Source: a virus. Taken from it: DNA of 24,066 nt. Positions within the stretch are counted from its first letter, which is position 1. Each line of letters starts with the position of its first letter. Of the stretch, positions 2,547 through 23,295 are shown one piece after another. Location: positions 1 through 24,066 of the IMG/VR virus record IMGVR_UViG_3300032307_000840. The stretch is one strand, 5' to 3'. A program made the translations under genes and the position numbers. Under the pieces are notes generated by a model. That model was not told the DNA's origin, did not search any database, and worked only from the letters and a program-made list of their open reading frames with translations.

Positions 2547-4166
2547 ATTAAAAAGTTTTTATACGCAACAATAGCCATAGCTATATTTTCTGTATCGTTA
2601 CTTTGGCCAGCAACTGCTAAAGCATCTACAACTGCAGTTTGTGATACTCATCAGGTTAATGGTGGAGATCAAGCATTCTTAATGAATTTGAATACTCCAC
2701 TAGAATTTGGTGGCACTGTATATAATGGTAACGTTTATGTAAGTCCAAAAGGAACAATGACTTTTGGTCAGGGTGATTTTACATTTTGGGACTTTCCACA
2801 AACCCCATCAATCTCTATAGCGTCTTGGGACTATCACGCTTTTGCAACTGGCACTCACCCTTGGGCAGCCCAAAATAACCTATACGTAAGATACGGATCA
2901 ACAGCAACATCTATTTGTGTTGACTGGAAAGTTTTACCTTGGGGTCAGTCTTCTGGAAATCCAGTTTATATAAGATTGATTGCAGAAGTTAATCCAGTAA
3001 ATTACACCTGGACTCCCACTTATCAAGTAAGCTCTAGTGCTCCAGCAGGGTCCAGATATGGTGTTCGTTATGTTCAGGGTGGTCCAGTATTACCTTTGAC
3101 TATTCAAACAATAACTGAGCCACCAGCACCAGCCCCCGTGGTCCCTCCAGCTCCAAGCCCTAGTCCTAGTCCTACACCAAGCCCCACTCCCACACCAAGC
3201 CCAACACCAACGCCACCATTTGTTCCAGAAGGATCCTTAGTGGTGCAAGAGGGAACCACGCTTGAAGTGGTGGCCCCAACAGGTAAAAAGATTTTAAATG
3301 CTGTAGGATATTATGGAGATCCAAACGATAGCACAAAAGGTGGAGAGGTTTCTTCTATCCTATATGACTTATTGTTTGGAAAAACCGCTGCAACCATAGA
3401 TGTATCAGATGAAACTTTTGAAAGTGCTATAGAGTCAGAAACTACCAAAGTTCTTATTTTTCTTATAACTTATGAGGATATCCCAGCAGAGCCAACTCCA
3501 ACACCTACTCCGACTCCAAGCCCTGTCTTACCAGTTGAACCTGTCGTACCGCCAACCAACCCAGTAGAGCCAACACCAGAACCTTCTCAGGATCCTGAGC
3601 CAATAGTCCCGCCAGCAATACAGCCAGAGGAACCAGAGCAAGTAATGCCACCAATTGAAGAACCTGAAGAATCTGTAAAACCTTCACCTGAACCAACTCC
3701 TTCTATTATAGAACCAGAAGAAGAGTCTATCACATCTGCAGAAGAATTACCAGTAGACATTTCTTCAGAAGAACTTCTGAATATAGACCTAGATCAAATT
3801 GAACCAACGGATCTTTCTGAGGCTCAGGCAGAAGCACTTATTGAAGCAGCTTTAGAAGTATTTGAAACAGCACAGCCAGGCTCTGAAGAATATGAGCAAG
3901 CTCTTGAAGCTTTATTTGTAGCAGCCCAGCAAGACGACATTGTTCTTGATGAGGCTCTTGCAGCTATACCGCTCCTTGGAGATGTTCTTGGTGGAGCTAC
4001 AGAGCTTATTAACTTTCTAGGAAACGCTGGGGCAGACATGAGTCCACAAGTAAGAGAAGACTCAGAAAAAATAGTAGTTACCGCAGTTGTTGCAGTGCAA
4101 GCAGCATTATCAGCAGTTTCTATAAGCGGTATAGCAACAACAGTAAACATAAGGAATGGAGCATAG
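2547..4166 (+). CDS. Exported Pro/Thr-rich surface protein, apparent ATT start
   Basis: From ATT at 2547 the product has 539 residues and begins with a classic signal peptide: two Lys, a hydrophobic core and an A-K-A cleavage site near residue 26. The AAGGAG site lies 9 nt before the ATT. The first in-frame ATG (2682) would delete the signal peptide. Next comes a beta-rich extracellular domain with two Cys that loosely recalls nidogen-like domains. Then follow a Pro-Ser/Pro-Thr linker, a small domain, a second Pro/Glu-rich linker, an acidic helical region and a hydrophobic C-terminal stretch that may be a membrane anchor. It is probably a surface or receptor-related protein of the phage or lysogen, but no family is recognised. 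Either ATT is a true rare start or the start codon has been mutated or misread. Confidence 0.7.
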   Translation: MKKFLYATIAIAIFSVSLLWPATAKASTTAVCDTHQVNGGDQAFLMNLNTPLEFGGTVYNGNVYVSPKGTMTFGQGDFTFWDFPQTPSISIASWDYHAFATGTHPWAAQNNLYVRYGSTATSICVDWKVLPWGQSSGNPVYIRLIAEVNPVNYTWTPTYQVSSSAPAGSRYGVRYVQGGPVLPLTIQTITEPPAPAPVVPPAPSPSPSPTPSPTPTPSPTPTPPFVPEGSLVVQEGTTLEVVAPTGKKILNAVGYYGDPNDSTKGGEVSSILYDLLFGKTAATIDVSDETFESAIESETTKVLIFLITYEDIPAEPTPTPTPTPSPVLPVEPVVPPTNPVEPTPEPSQDPEPIVPPAIQPEEPEQVMPPIEEPEESVKPSPEPTPSIIEPEEESITSAEELPVDISSEELLNIDLDQIEPTDLSEAQAEALIEAALEVFETAQPGSEEYEQALEALFVAAQQDDIVLDEALAAIPLLGDVLGGATELINFLGNAGADMSPQVREDSEKIVVTAVVAVQAALSAVSISGIATTVNIRNGA

Positions 4167-4167
4167 A

Positions 4168-4356
4168 ATGAAATTTTTAATAGCATTAGCTAAGGACGTC
4201 ATAGAGCAGGCATGGACATTGCTTGGTATGGTAGTTGCTTGGCTTGTCCTGGAGGGATCCGCTAAGGAACTCACAGGAAATCTCATACTAATTACCCTAT
4301 TAGTATGGATAGTAACATTTCCAATTTTTCGTTATGAAAAAGAAGAAACTAAGTAG
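4168..4356 (+). CDS. Small holin-like membrane protein 1
   Basis: This 62-residue protein has two hydrophobic segments (about residues 12-27 and 36-53) and a charged KEEETK-type tail. I chose ATG 4168 because GGAG at 4158-4161 sits at proper spacing and the previous gene stops at 4166; an upstream in-frame ATG at 4156 would overlap that gene. Size, two membrane helices and its place beside a second such protein suggest a holin or a holin partner. No catalytic motif is visible, so function is inferred from shape and context. Confidence 0.7.
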   Translation: MKFLIALAKDVIEQAWTLLGMVVAWLVLEGSAKELTGNLILITLLVWIVTFPIFRYEKEETK

Positions 4357-4369
4357 ATAGGAAAACCAA

Positions 4370-4639
4370 ATGGAAGAACAAGCAGTAGCAGGTGGTCTTG
4401 CAACCATCAAGAACGTAATTTGGAGAATTCTAGCAGTATTCGCAGCGTCTGGACTAACAGTTCTAGGTGCAGGTGCAGTGGTAGGCGTTGAGCTTTGGTC
4501 TGCTGTACTCATGGCGGGTATTCTGGGAGTAGCTTCAGTAGTTGAAAGACTAGCTAGATCATTCTTGGATGATGGCAAGCTAAGCCTAGACGAGATTAAC
4601 GCTGCCTTTGCTAAGGTAGACAAGAATCAAGAATCATAA
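4370..4639 (+). CDS. Small holin-like membrane protein 2
   Basis: This 89-residue protein has two Ala/Gly/Val-rich membrane segments (about residues 17-39 and 42-58). After them comes a soluble tail with D-D-G-K-L-S-L-D-E-I, a pattern frequent at the C terminus of small phage holins and reminiscent of half an EF-hand. An AGGAAA ribosome site precedes the ATG, 13 nt after the previous stop. With the 62-residue neighbour it forms a two-protein membrane pair like holin pairs in actinophages. The candidate endolysin lies some distance downstream at 7395. Confidence 0.65.
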   Translation: MEEQAVAGGLATIKNVIWRILAVFAASGLTVLGAGAVVGVELWSAVLMAGILGVASVVERLARSFLDDGKLSLDEINAAFAKVDKNQES

Positions 4640-4657
4640 TATAAACAATATGGTTGC

Positions 4658-4717
4658 TTGCAAAGCCCCTCTAGATAGTGTATAATGGGTTTATACAAAA
4701 TTTAGAGGGGTTTTCTT
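4658..4717 (+). promoter_or_regulatory. Promoter and RBS enclosed in a nested hairpin (terminator or translation switch)
   Basis: A near-consensus promoter, TTGCAA (4658-4663), 17-bp spacer, TATAAT (4681-4686), drives the next gene. The same bases form a nested stem-loop: outer arms 4662-4673 and 4703-4714 (12 pairs with one G-U), symmetric 5-nt internal loops, inner arms TGTATAA (4679-4685) and TTATACA (4691-4697), and a 5-nt loop. The right outer arm contains the ribosome site GAGG (4705-4708). RNA reading through from the holin-like genes can fold; RNA started at about 4693 lacks the left arm and cannot. The structure could terminate the upstream operon or mask the ribosome site. Confidence 0.7.
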
Positions 4718-5083
4718 ATGCCAACATCAGCCAAGTATGCAAAAATGCCTACAGAGGTTCAGATTGGAACACAGCTGTGGACAATTGAAGAGCGTAACAG
4801 AAACAAAGACTCTGCACTAAGCGACGAAGCCTATGGTTATACGCTACACAGAGATTCTTTAATTATTATAGACTCTTTGGCAACACCAAGCAGAAAAAGA
4901 CAAACGCTTTTGCATGAGCTAATGCATGCTGTTAGGCATAGTCTTGGAAGCCCAATCACTCCTAAAAATGATGACGACTCAGATGCTTGGGAACATTTTT
5001 TTATTGGCATGTACGAAGAGGGACTCTTGTTAATTATTCGTGACAATCCAAAAGTACTTGATTATCTTTTAAGTGAAGAATAA
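4718..5083 (+). CDS. Zinc-peptidase-like protein (HExxH), ImmA/IrrE-like
   Basis: This 121-residue protein carries HELMH (residues 66-70) in a predicted helix, the zinc-binding HExxH signature, preceded by a TLL-type strand-helix as in small ImmA/IrrE-like (DUF955) and phage metallopeptidase-like proteins. A downstream acidic site in DAWEHFF (Glu92) could be the third zinc ligand. There is no signal peptide, so it acts in the cytoplasm. In other phages such proteins cleave repressors or are of unknown substrate; here no repressor is adjacent. Its translation may depend on the hairpin-wrapped promoter just upstream. Confidence 0.7.
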   Translation: MPTSAKYAKMPTEVQIGTQLWTIEERNRNKDSALSDEAYGYTLHRDSLIIIDSLATPSRKRQTLLHELMHAVRHSLGSPITPKNDDDSDAWEHFFIGMYEEGLLLIIRDNPKVLDYLLSEE

Positions 5084-5085
5084 GC

Positions 5086-5114
5086 TTGACTTTTTTGCAC
5101 TCTGGGTGTAAAAT
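5086..5114 (+). promoter_or_regulatory. Consensus promoter, leaderless start
   Basis: TTGACT (5086-5091), 17-bp spacer, TAAAAT (5109-5114). Only 6 nt separate the -10 box from the ATG at 5121, and no ribosome site fits, so the transcript should begin at or next to the start codon. Confidence 0.8.
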
Positions 5115-5120
5115 ATATTT

Positions 5121-5366
5121 ATGACAGAAAAAACATTTGACGAATGGCTACAAGAAGGTCTTTCCCTTGGTTATTGTGGTCCAGCAATTTGTTATCCACA
5201 CGACGGTTTGCCATTAACTGAAAAAGAAGATGAGCAATTTGGCGAGGGCGAAGATCCTTGCATACACATTCTAAGACTATACGAAGACTTAGAGATGAAA
5301 AAAGCGGTAGAAGAAAATCATTCTCCATCTGTATGGAGAGCAACCAATTCTGGTTTCAAACTATAA
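5121..5366 (+). CDS. Conserved small actinophage protein of unknown function
   Basis: This 81-residue protein has the order EWL..G...G-Y-C-G-P-x-x-C...H-D-G-L-P-x-T-x-x-E-D-E...D-P-C-I-H-x-x-R-L-Y, which I recognise as a widespread small actinophage protein without an assigned function. Three Cys (19, 24, 47) and two nearby His suggest metal or redox binding, but this is only inferred. It has its own promoter and a predicted leaderless start, and it is followed 21 nt later by the exported protease gene. Confidence 0.75.
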   Translation: MTEKTFDEWLQEGLSLGYCGPAICYPHDGLPLTEKEDEQFGEGEDPCIHILRLYEDLEMKKAVEENHSPSVWRATNSGFKL

Positions 5367-8924: not shown

Positions 8925-10109
8925 ATGCCATATTCAATAGGAGAGCAGGGAAGCTACGAATGTAGCGGATATCCAGTCGTTAAAGACGACGATAAAAGAG
9001 TCATGGGTTGCCACGAGACAAGAGAAAAAGCTGTTGCACAGATTGCAGCAATTGAAGCTAATGAAAATAAGGGTGTTGGAATAAAAAACCCTGAGTCTTG
9101 GCCAACCAACCAAAAGAAGTATAAAAAGTTTAGGGTAAGACGCCACAAGCCAGGATACGTTTTTGATTCATCTGGTGCTGTAATTGCAGGGAGCGATTCA
9201 ATGACAACGAAGTCTGCGATTGCTGAGGGTGACTTTGTAATGGGACAAACATCTGAAGGAGTTGTTCATGGTGTTGTTGAACATATTATGTGGGAAGGTG
9301 GAACCCTCGGAACACCAGGATCAGAATACGCTCTTGAGTCCATGCCACCAGAAAATCCAGCTATGTCTGTAAGAATTTATGAATATGAAGATGATGAAGA
9401 GTACTGGGAGCCAACCGCTTATAGCATTGGAATGATGTATGTAGATGCAACGGTTGTTGACATGGAAGATCATGATATGGATGAAATGGAAATGATGAGT
9501 AAGGCAGAGGGCTACACTCCAACTTCTGGTATGAAAGCAGCTGCACGTCGTGCTCTTAAATGGAAAGAAGAAGGCAAGGCAACAGGCGCAGGAACTCCTG
9601 TAGGTTGGGGTAGAGCAACAGATATCGTAGCAGGACGGTCAATGTCTCTTAGTGTTGTTAGACGAATGTTTTCTTTCTTCTCTCGTCATGAGAAGTCAAG
9701 CAAGGGTGGAAAAGATTTTAACAACCTAAGCAATCCATCTAATGGTCGTATCATGTGGGATGCTTGGGGTGGAGATGCAGGATTTTCTTGGTCTCGTGCA
9801 ATCGTAAGACGTGAAATGGATAAGGCTTTGTTTTCTAATTTTGGAAAAGACTTTACCAATGTAGATCGTCTTACAGAAATTTTTAAGTCTATTTCGGTTG
9901 GATCCATGGTTTCTTGGAACTCTTCTGGCGGTAGAGCAAGAGGAAAAGTAATTAGAATTATTCGTGATGGTCGCTACAATGTACCAGGAACAGAGGTTAC
10001 TGTAACTGGAACTAAAGAGGAGCCAGCAGCAGTAATAAGACTCTACCGTGACGGAGAGCCAACAGATATAATCGTTGCCCACAAAATTAAATCACTTACT
10101 AGCCTTTAG
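8925..10109 (+). CDS. Multidomain phage protein with duplicated Tudor-like (HVA1-type) domains
   Basis: The 394-residue product has four parts. Residues 1-46 contain V-V-K-D-D-x-K-V-M-G-C-H-x-T, an N-terminal unit I associate with phage prohead-protease or portal-linked proteins. Residues about 99-178 and 323-394 are two divergent copies of one small beta domain, sharing the spaced pattern G-x3-G-x-V-x2-I...PG-x-E...E-x-PA...R-I/L-Y...PT; the second resembles HVA1/Tudor-like domains. Residues 200-300 form a conserved helical domain with ARRALKWKEEGKA, FFSRHE and MWDAWGGDAGFSW, known in actinophage structural proteins. It could be a virion-assembly or DNA-associated protein; no catalytic residues are clear. 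A predicted leaderless start is used. Confidence 0.7.
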   Translation: MPYSIGEQGSYECSGYPVVKDDDKRVMGCHETREKAVAQIAAIEANENKGVGIKNPESWPTNQKKYKKFRVRRHKPGYVFDSSGAVIAGSDSMTTKSAIAEGDFVMGQTSEGVVHGVVEHIMWEGGTLGTPGSEYALESMPPENPAMSVRIYEYEDDEEYWEPTAYSIGMMYVDATVVDMEDHDMDEMEMMSKAEGYTPTSGMKAAARRALKWKEEGKATGAGTPVGWGRATDIVAGRSMSLSVVRRMFSFFSRHEKSSKGGKDFNNLSNPSNGRIMWDAWGGDAGFSWSRAIVRREMDKALFSNFGKDFTNVDRLTEIFKSISVGSMVSWNSSGGRARGKVIRIIRDGRYNVPGTEVTVTGTKEEPAAVIRLYRDGEPTDIIVAHKIKSLTSL

Positions 10110-16531: not shown

Positions 16532-16684
16532 TCAGGGGTTTTCAATCTCAAAGTCTAGCTCAGCATTTAATAGTCTTAGTCTCATCTCTATTGACTCCAG
16601 GGCCTCTTGGTTCATAGCAATTTCAAGTTCAATGCGATCTAGCTTTTGACTTATTTTTGCAGCCTCTGTTTCAAAATCATTCAT
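16532..16684 (-). CDS. 50-residue coiled-coil peptide
   Basis: ATG at 16684 overlaps the end of thyX by 8 nt and opens a 50-codon frame ending TGA at 16532-16534. The product is a single amphipathic heptad-type helix (ISQKLDRIELEIAMN...LESIEMRLRLLNAELDFE) with an acidic end, so it should dimerise. Tight overlap with thyX and the clean heptad pattern support a real gene. Function unknown. Confidence 0.65.
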   Translation of the reverse strand: MNDFETEAAKISQKLDRIELEIAMNQEALESIEMRLRLLNAELDFEIENP

Positions 16685-17375
16685 TATTAGTTAATGCTTT
16701 AAAAGTTTCTGGAAATGATTTGTGCGACAAGTCTCTAATAGCTATTGCATATTGCTGAATTTCCCATTGAGCGTCATGCTCCAGTCTCTGCTCTAAAAAC
16801 GTCATAACGCCCTGCAAGGATACAGTCCAACGCCAACGTACATACATTGCATATGCTGGCAAAAATAATCTTGCTTCTTCTGGAGCAATATCTTCTTTCA
16901 TAGCTTCATGATATAGTCTTACACCCTCAGTAATAACATCATTAAGCTTGTTTGTATAATAGAATCCGCTACTAGCAGAAATTGGCTTTCCGCTACCCTG
17001 CTTGCTATTTTCTGGCTTGCTTCTCCAGGAAGATGCTGATGGAACGTAAAACTCTTCTTTTTCAGTAATATATCTACGAGAAGATTCATTCCAACCATTT
17101 TGATCATCAATGTGCGATGAGGCTACAGCATACTTCCACCACTGTCTTGCTACAAAAAGTGGGGCATATACTTCAAAGGTTAAAGCAGCATGTCTAAAAG
17201 GGCTAGTGTGGTTTTCTCTAATTAAAAAATTAATAAGCTTAGAATCTTTTTCAGTAAATCTATCAATCTCTTTATCGTAAGATACTCTTGCAGCATTTAC
17301 TATACTTAGGTCATTACCAAGCGTATCCACTAGCCTTACATAGCCTTTGTCAAGAACATCTATCCTATTACTCAC
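16677..17375 (-). CDS. thyX: Flavin-dependent thymidylate synthase with divergent signature
   Basis: The 232-residue protein matches ThyX, which makes dTMP from dUMP using FAD, NADPH and methylene-tetrahydrofolate. Landmarks are HTSPFRH (56-62), the RQW...NESSRRY signature region (77-102), and a C-terminal FLEQR...AQWEIQQYA helix (193-210). The canonical R-H-R-x7-S motif is changed: RQWWKY replaces RQW-x-RHR, and the distance to N-E-S-S-R-R-Y is longer. GTG is the start, with AAGGGG upstream, and it overlaps the preceding stop (TAGTG). Together with the class II RNR it supplies DNA precursors. Confidence 0.88.
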   Translation of the reverse strand: MSNRIDVLDKGYVRLVDTLGNDLSIVNAARVSYDKEIDRFTEKDSKLINFLIRENHTSPFRHAALTFEVYAPLFVARQWWKYAVASSHIDDQNGWNESSRRYITEKEEFYVPSASSWRSKPENSKQGSGKPISASSGFYYTNKLNDVITEGVRLYHEAMKEDIAPEEARLFLPAYAMYVRWRWTVSLQGVMTFLEQRLEHDAQWEIQQYAIAIRDLSHKSFPETFKALTNNE

Positions 17376-17944: not shown

Positions 17945-18436
17945 CTATACTGGCCAAACATAGTCGTATGACTGTGGAGCTCTACCAGTATCCTCATTCC
18001 AACTAAACTGGGAATACCATTCGTAATCTTTGGTTAGCAAAGCTAGACGATGACTCTTAGCAACCTCTTGATATAAGCTAGACTCTGTAATCCAATTTGG
18101 CGGAGTTTTGTCTGAAGATACAAGATCATGGTTTACTGCAACTTTTAAGGTTTCTGCAGCTTTATCTTTAATAGTTGTTTTGTATCCACGCAATACCCAT
18201 TCGTCAGTCATGGCAACAATGTAGTCAAACAAAGATTGTTCATGACCTTTCCACATTTTAACAGCAGGATGATTAGACCATCCCTTAGAAACTCTGTGGT
18301 CACCCTTGGGATCTAGCTGTAGCAGATTCATCATAATCTGCCATCCTTCAAGTGCCTGCTTGTTTAGTCTTTTATTATCTAGCACCTTGGCTATGTCAGA
18401 AAAGTTAGTGCTAGCAATCGGTACAAAGGTTTGCAT
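17945..18436 (-). CDS. MSMEG_6728-family protein, pyrimidine-dimer glycosylase-like
   Basis: The 163-residue product begins MQTFVPI...FSDIAKVLDNKRLNKQALEGWQIM and has the hallmark W-x-NHPAV-x-MWKGHE block (residues 53-66). I recognise this as the MSMEG_6728 family, related to T4 endonuclease V-like (Pyr_excise) proteins. The R/K and E residues in RLNKQALE may act in DNA binding or catalysis, by analogy only. A role in phage DNA repair is plausible. It follows the 66-residue gene with overlapping stop and start. Confidence 0.75.
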   Translation of the reverse strand: MQTFVPIASTNFSDIAKVLDNKRLNKQALEGWQIMMNLLQLDPKGDHRVSKGWSNHPAVKMWKGHEQSLFDYIVAMTDEWVLRGYKTTIKDKAAETLKVAVNHDLVSSDKTPPNWITESSLYQEVAKSHRLALLTKDYEWYSQFSWNEDTGRAPQSYDYVWPV

Positions 18437-22456: not shown

Positions 22457-23051
22457 CCAGGGTATCAGGTGAAGCCATCGTAATCCCTAGTATAAGACAT
22501 AACCCCTAGTAATAACAAACCATGTTTTTGGACAAACCCCATAGCCCCAATATACCCATATCCCCCACATCAAAGATACTCTGATACCCCGCAAAAATAG
22601 CAAAGTTATACACATGGTTTGATACTTATCCACATAGTTATACACAGTTTATCCACATATAGTTCTTACTGATTTTATTTGTATATGGAGTATAAGTGGA
22701 GAAGAGTGGTTTGATATGGAGAATGGAGCCCCTGGCTTCGTAAGGCCGTAATCTTTCTCAAACCATTATACTCCCAAACCACCCAATAGTCAATAGTGGA
22801 AACCTAAAATCTTCTATCAAACCACATTTTCTAGGTATCCTACAAACCATTATAGCTGCCAAACCACCATATAAAACATATAAAAACATAGTGGTTTTTG
22901 GATCAAACCACATATAAATTTATATAAACTATATGGTTTTATATCAAAAGATAATGGTTTTGTATTGTTATTTATACTAGGGGTAATTGGTATTCTTTTT
23001 GATACCCTGGCCCGTAGGGCTGCAGCTCCGCTGCCAAAAATTCCAGGGTAT
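22457..23051. repeat. CCAGGGTAT repeats, direct and inverted
   Basis: CCAGGGTAT occurs at 22457 and 23043, each followed by a similar stretch (GAAGC, ATCGTAAT, ... TAATAACAAACCA) of about 50-65 bp. Another copy is at 22095 in the end of two convergent genes. The inverted ATACCCTGG (23002-23010) faces 23043-23051 with 32 bp between, holding a smaller GC-rich hairpin GCAG/CTGC. Confidence 0.6.
22606..22657 (+). repeat. Cluster of four DnaA-box-like 9-mers
   Basis: TTATACACA at 22606 and 22638 and TTATCCACA at 22626 and 22649 all lie on the same strand and match the classic DnaA box TTATNCACA without mismatch. Start-to-start distances are 20, 12 and 11 bp, so the last three are on nearly the same helix face. 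I found no further perfect box elsewhere in the window. Confidence 0.8.
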
Positions 23052-23110
23052 TTAGGAAGCTATCGTAATACCAAACCACATAATAACAAACCACTATAGT
23101 CTGATATACA

Positions 23111-23265
23111 AAAACTTTCAGTGATTTTTTTTAATTGGTTCGTAATGTCTTTTTGGGAAAAAGATGGTTTGATATATATGGGGATATGATGGTTTGGGAT
23201 CAAGGATGGTTTGACAAATACCCCCAAAACTTTCAGTGATTTTTTGGAGAAGGTTCTTAATGTCT
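23111..23265 (+). repeat. Direct repeat of about 40 bp, two copies 115 bp apart
   Basis: Positions 23111-23130 and 23226-23245 are identical over 20 bp. At equal offset, 23137-23150 and 23252-23265 match at 13 of 14. The second copy ends 1 bp before the -35 box of a perfect promoter; the equivalent place after the first copy holds only a degenerate promoter. Confidence 0.75.
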
Positions 23266-23266
23266 A

Positions 23267-23295
23267 TTGACAAATGGTTTTTGGTTTGATATAAT
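23267..23295 (+). promoter_or_regulatory. Perfect consensus promoter in the origin-like region
   Basis: TTGACA (23267-23272), 17-bp spacer, TATAAT (23290-23295). No gene follows on this strand. Transcription from about 23302 meets a terminator within about 50 nt. Confidence 0.85.

Follow-up and report, generated by a model that had tools for sequence, protein, structure and literature searches.

A promoter nested within a terminator-like hairpin at the end of a holin-like operon in uncultured phages, with a predicted lock on the downstream ribosome site

In a linear virus record of 24,066 bases (IMGVR_UViG_3300032307_000840; the whole record is referred to here as the window), an inverted repeat with arms at 4662-4685 and 4691-4714 and a 5-nt loop lies between a holin-like gene and an M78-type peptidase gene, and a host-type promoter is nested within it. 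We consider it likely that this element is an operon boundary composed of a terminator-like hairpin, a masked ribosome site, and an internal promoter that escapes both. A broader proposal, to which we give about even chances, is that this three-in-one boundary element is fixed across a large uncultured phage group, probably actinobacterial, where it would act as an exchange point. It would remain attached to the holin-like gene, with at least ten unrelated genes having taken up the position at its start codon, shielded from transcription coming from upstream.

We postulate that polymerase coming from the upstream operon transcribes both arms and that the resulting RNA forms a strong hairpin with a U-run behind it, where most upstream RNA would terminate. 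RNA that reads through would keep the ribosome site locked in the stem, and the downstream gene would not be made from upstream RNA. The host-type promoter, with its -10 in the hairpin, would start RNA within the right arm. This internally started RNA, without the left arm, would form no hairpin, would not terminate, and would leave the ribosome site exposed. A consensus host-type promoter would more likely be active early, and the lock may guard against read-through at later times. The start of transcription, its termination, the block to translation, and the timing in infection are all inferred here from sequence.

Anatomy of the hairpin and nesting of the promoter

The element and its neighbors in the window are as follows.

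4156-4356, + strand: small membrane-protein-like gene, 66 aa; an open frame with weak family matches only
4370-4639, + strand: holin-like gene, 89 aa; the element comes after its stop codon in most relatives
4658-4663, + strand: -35 hexamer TTGCAA; in relatives TTGACA or close to it
4662-4685, + strand: left hairpin arm, most of which falls within the -35/-10 spacer; it holds the complement of the ribosome site and covaries
4681-4686, + strand: -10 hexamer TATAAT, placed in the inner stem and loop
4691-4714, + strand: right arm of the hairpin, from the inverted repeat and predicted fold
4693 (about 4692-4694), + strand: predicted transcription start, in the right inner arm, placed by its spacing from the -10
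4704-4710, + strand: ribosome site AGAGGGG, within the right arm
4711-4717, + strand: T-run TTTTCTT, between the ribosome site and the start codon (ATG at 4718); it resembles the tail of an intrinsic terminator
4718-5083, + strand: M78/ImmA-like HExxH peptidase gene, 121 aa (PF06114, E 7e-07); other phages have unrelated genes instead

Folded as RNA, positions 4640-4740 reach -34.6 kcal/mol (z -4.2), a value that none of 200 shuffles equaled, and the predicted stability of the stem (4662-4714) is -27.4 kcal/mol. No excess structure was found on folding 4692-4760. A first-pass annotation of this DNA had described the hairpin with a 12-bp outer stem and 5-nt internal loops. The hairpin is present and folds, but in the energy model the outer stem is 15 bp long and includes two G.U pairs, the internal loop is 2x2, and a 7-bp inner stem is capped by a 5-nt loop. 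The annotation had also placed the -10 in the inner stem and the Shine-Dalgarno sequence (SD) of the HExxH gene in the right outer arm, and both are found there. The -35 and -10 hexamers are separated by a 17-base spacer. Because the predicted start lies in the right inner arm, RNA from the internal promoter would lack the left arm. In the window, opening the ribosome site is predicted to cost 19.6 kcal/mol in the read-through RNA and 4.6 kcal/mol in the internal RNA, a difference in SD accessibility in the direction that the annotation had proposed. When the internal RNA is taken to start after the -10, the ribosome site is predicted to be harder to open in the read-through RNA in 90 of 90 distinct elements (mean, 17.0 versus 3.3 kcal/mol). 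Rfam at its gathering score identified only tRNAs in the window, and a relaxed threshold added nothing credible.

The element is present in more than 100 related phages, mostly aquatic. Viral contigs contain 267 relatives of the holin-like protein. We took 80 of them for comparison, and most have the same arrangement directly after their stop codons. A separate pattern scan yielded at least 120 loci. Combining the holin relatives with the scan gave a larger set of 103 distinct oriented elements that is partly pattern-selected, as part of it was required to contain CCC..GGGGTTT. Our main claim rests on an unascertained set, in which the best promoter (at least 9/12) within 140 bases after each holin stop codon was chosen and folded only afterwards. 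Among the 40 distinct promoters in this set, 38 are nested in a hairpin. The mean arm pairing is -25.1 kcal/mol for a phage's own arms, -15.3 kcal/mol for arms swapped between phages, and -8.4 kcal/mol when right arms are shuffled; shuffled right arms reached -20 kcal/mol in 0.4% of trials. In three near-complete relatives (94-112 kb), each with 17-22 strong promoters, no strong promoter other than that of the element is nested in a strong hairpin. The nesting of promoter and hairpin is not due to chance.

Covariation of the arms and the conserved T-run

The two arms covary. Across 24 hand-picked, aligned elements, both bases have changed in 11 of the 13 pairs of the outer stem and pairing is retained; none of 500 shuffles reached any of five measures, and the measures drop steeply when the register is slid. 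The signal is weaker in a second clade of 26 sequences, with covariation at 5 of 10 pairs and 12 cells changed on both sides (0/500 shuffles). A third alignment, of 93 elements, contains 197 covarying cells compared to 49 in shuffles, although fitting of that alignment (A3) to the model makes these counts lean towards structure. When changes are mapped by parsimony onto a holin protein tree, about 85 are double changes from one pair to another, 114 are single changes after which the position still pairs, and 38 disrupt pairing; these counts are approximate, since the alignment and the tree are so too. A lack of covariation in related phages had been named as grounds for abandoning the idea of a read-through switch; the covariation is strong, and that idea is not refuted.

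The mismatches that do occur are unevenly distributed. A.C mismatches are depleted about four-fold (7 seen versus 25 expected, and 4 versus 16), whereas G.U mismatches are near expectation (48 seen of 61 expected, and 51 of 63). A DNA palindrome would treat A.C and G.U alike. Thus, selection appears to act on + strand RNA that contains both arms, that is, on the read-through RNA.

The T-run is also conserved. The spacer between the ribosome site and the ATG begins with TTT in 23 of 30 unascertained elements, compared to 2 of 140 other genes in the same phages, whose ribosome-site spacers are A-rich. The third and fourth T mostly fall beyond the consensus stem and so are not accounted for by helix length; a terminator U-run accounts for them. 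The strength of the run varies; the version in the window is moderate, and those in L043 and L044 are weak. A generic scan for terminators missed the element, probably because of the internal loop.

The ribosome site is not always part of the hairpin. Of the 38 nested elements in the unascertained set, six (L040, L043, L044, L045, L049 and L052) have it downstream of the hairpin, and hairpin and T-run are kept with the site outside the stem in L038-40, L043-45, L049 and L052. Two loci are natural separation-of-function variants: L012 (3280-3380) has a plain hairpin with a T-run, followed by a separate promoter, and L017 (3290-3400) keeps the hairpin and a longer T-run, with a decayed -35 and a new promoter after them. 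Since the hairpin outlives its overlap with the ribosome site and with the promoter, termination is favored as the common core. From these comparisons, it looks as though ribosome-site masking is a second lock, present in most phages. The earlier suggestion that read-through RNA is either stopped or has its SD hidden is therefore kept in part: masking is predicted and termination is at least as well supported, but hiding of the SD is not a constant property of the element.

Alternative explanations and known systems

The repeat overlaps the -35, the spacer and the -10, the classic place for an operator, and occurs about once per genome. These properties would fit a DNA operator for a dimeric regulator, or a cruciform, overlapping the promoter. 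However, the stem sequence is not conserved and drifts with compensatory changes, and DNA symmetry would not deplete A.C while tolerating G.U. We consider such a DNA element highly improbable and set it aside because of the strand bias in the mismatches. The least probable of the readings we weighed is an RNase III-type processing site, at which read-through RNA would be cut in the hairpin and two messages separated. T7-type phage RNA processing sites have a long stem with a small internal loop, which the element resembles, but processing leaves both the promoter inside the hairpin and the T-run after it unexplained.

Explanations that invoke either termination or translation, but not both, come closer. 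The element might be simply the intrinsic terminator of the holin operon, overlapping the next promoter for economy of space, with hiding of the ribosome site an unselected side effect. The conserved T-run, and the persistence of hairpin and T-run where the ribosome site is outside the stem or the promoter is separate (L012, L017), argue for this, and we regard it as a serious possibility, albeit one that we doubt. About 32 of the 38 nested elements in the unascertained set carry the ribosome site in the arm, where it is predicted to be fully masked in read-through RNA, and in most elements the -10 stays in the loop despite room downstream. Conversely, the element could be a translational switch only, as in T4 genes e and soc, with abundant read-through RNA silenced by the masked ribosome site and negligible termination. 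The predicted opening cost of about 17 kcal/mol in read-through RNA and the precedent of T4 e, where folding has a 100-fold repressive effect (PMC3014915), are in its favor. We think it unlikely, as the hairpin is kept in elements that have the ribosome site outside it, and the conserved T-run is unusual among the ribosome-site spacers of these phages. We prefer an operon boundary that combines termination, masking and an internal promoter.

Several phage genes are controlled by related means. In T4 genes e, soc, 49, I-TevI/II/III and segB, and in mobE of phage Aeh1, read-through RNA folds and hides the ribosome site. In the T4 genes, the long early RNAs are silent, and a late promoter located in the 5' strand of the structure gives an RNA that cannot fold and is translated; hairpins of this type are conserved in related phages, and the logic is proven for e and I-TevI (PMC3014915, PMC2988022). 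The element is similar to those of e and soc in that the ribosome site is predicted to be paired in RNA with both arms, RNA from the internal promoter lacks the 5' arm, judging by the sequence, and the fold is conserved. It differs in other respects. The T4 genes have late promoters TATAAATA, whereas the internal promoter here is by sequence not a phage late promoter but the host-type TTGACA-17-TATAAT, so the order of events in time need not match that in T4. In addition, the element carries a T-run, sometimes without a ribosome site in the hairpin. Its place is at the end of the holin operon upstream, whereas the genes that come after it vary. The first-pass comparison to e and soc thus fits the anatomy and the strong covariation, but not the promoter class or the inconstant hiding of the ribosome site. 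The element works like the T4 switch and is not a member of the T4 late-promoter family. The logic is known from T4; the promoter type, the added terminator and the phage group are different.

Other elements share fewer features. In the start-associated and extended start-associated sequences (SAS/ESAS) of cluster K mycobacteriophages, which are actinobacterial phages, an inverted repeat likewise lies immediately before a start codon. Pope et al. state that RNA pairing is not supported by the arms of ESAS (PMC3203893). Here, in contrast, the pairing covaries, and the element is single copy whereas ESAS is multi-copy. The SAS consensus GGGATAGGAGCCC has no match in the window at up to 2 mismatches. 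Like intrinsic (Rho-independent) terminators, the element closes an operon with a stable G+C-rich stem and a U-run after it, but unlike them it contains a -10 and usually the ribosome site of the next gene, and an internal loop interrupts its stem. A few searches of the open-licence literature, which are weak evidence of novelty, found no matching case of promoters nested in terminators.

The element would represent a T4-type read-through switch outside the T4-like phages, with an ordinary host-type promoter and unusually strong covariation, combined with a terminator in about 53 bases. It could serve as a portable, ready-made insulated promoter for testing, and its presence could mark a large group of uncultured phages. 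An element that is fixed while downstream genes are swapped also bears on how phages might exchange cargo genes without mis-expression.

Distribution, host and neighboring genes

The host is plausibly actinobacterial, as the first-pass annotation had supposed, and the suggestion comes from two sources: a WhiB gene in the window, and phage DSL-LC01, the only named relative found with the holin protein. DSL-LC01 is a metagenome-assembled phage with Actinomycetia as its predicted host (PMC10611076); the element is absent from it. No match turned up when 50,697 phage records were searched at the DNA level. Across 84,980 bacterial and archaeal genomes, the element pattern has 26 matches scattered over unrelated phyla, which are probably due to chance. 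When whole records were searched with the model, the element was found in 23 of 28, almost always as a single copy. Most records give a second match that is this site read from the opposite strand, and G021 and G025 have a further weak match.

In one relative, G001, the genes upstream of the element are all on one strand and include DNA polymerase, a UvsX-like recombinase, a Cas4-type exonuclease and RuvC through to terminase; ribonucleotide reductase and thioredoxin (both named by size and order as in the window) and the holin-like gene adjoin the element. We use the name holin because of the size, membrane segments and position of the protein; its match to PHROG holin 443 is weak (E 0.008), and its best PHROG match is annotated as a nuclease. 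Genes of at least ten families, unrelated to one another, lie downstream of the 103 elements: 67 encode a proteasome-like protein of 176 aa, 15 an M78 peptidase, 8 a small protein and 2 an endolysin-like protein (assigned by eye), and there are others. Since these families are unrelated, we suspect that the element travels with the upstream operon and that the next gene is exchanged at its start codon.

The 176-aa protein, encoded directly after the element in L177 and 66 other loci, starts with MTCIA..GDRGAS and resembles proteasome beta subunits only marginally (Pfam E 0.01, PDB E 0.25). Its sequence suggests that it is possibly a phage Ntn-hydrolase with the threonine at position 2. Elsewhere in the window, a 394-aa protein (8925-10109) has a C-terminal Hva1_TUDOR domain (PF11160, E 2.6e-07), and a pyrimidine dimer DNA glycosylase (17945-18436, - strand; PF03013, E 1.9e-19) is encoded near a thymidylate synthase gene (16677-17375). 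The region 22771-23268 contains several direct repeats that are imperfect, among them two 43-nt copies 115 bases apart.

Many other promoters in these phages may produce messages of a different kind. In G001, G003, G012 and the window, many strong promoters (12 of 64 that score 11/12 or better) have a -10 whose first base precedes an ATG by exactly 12 bases, a spacing that is a signature of leaderless messages. The nested element, with its ribosome-site leader, is an exception. The same 12-base spacing occurs in the window at a promoter at 5086-5114 (10/12) with its ATG at 5121.
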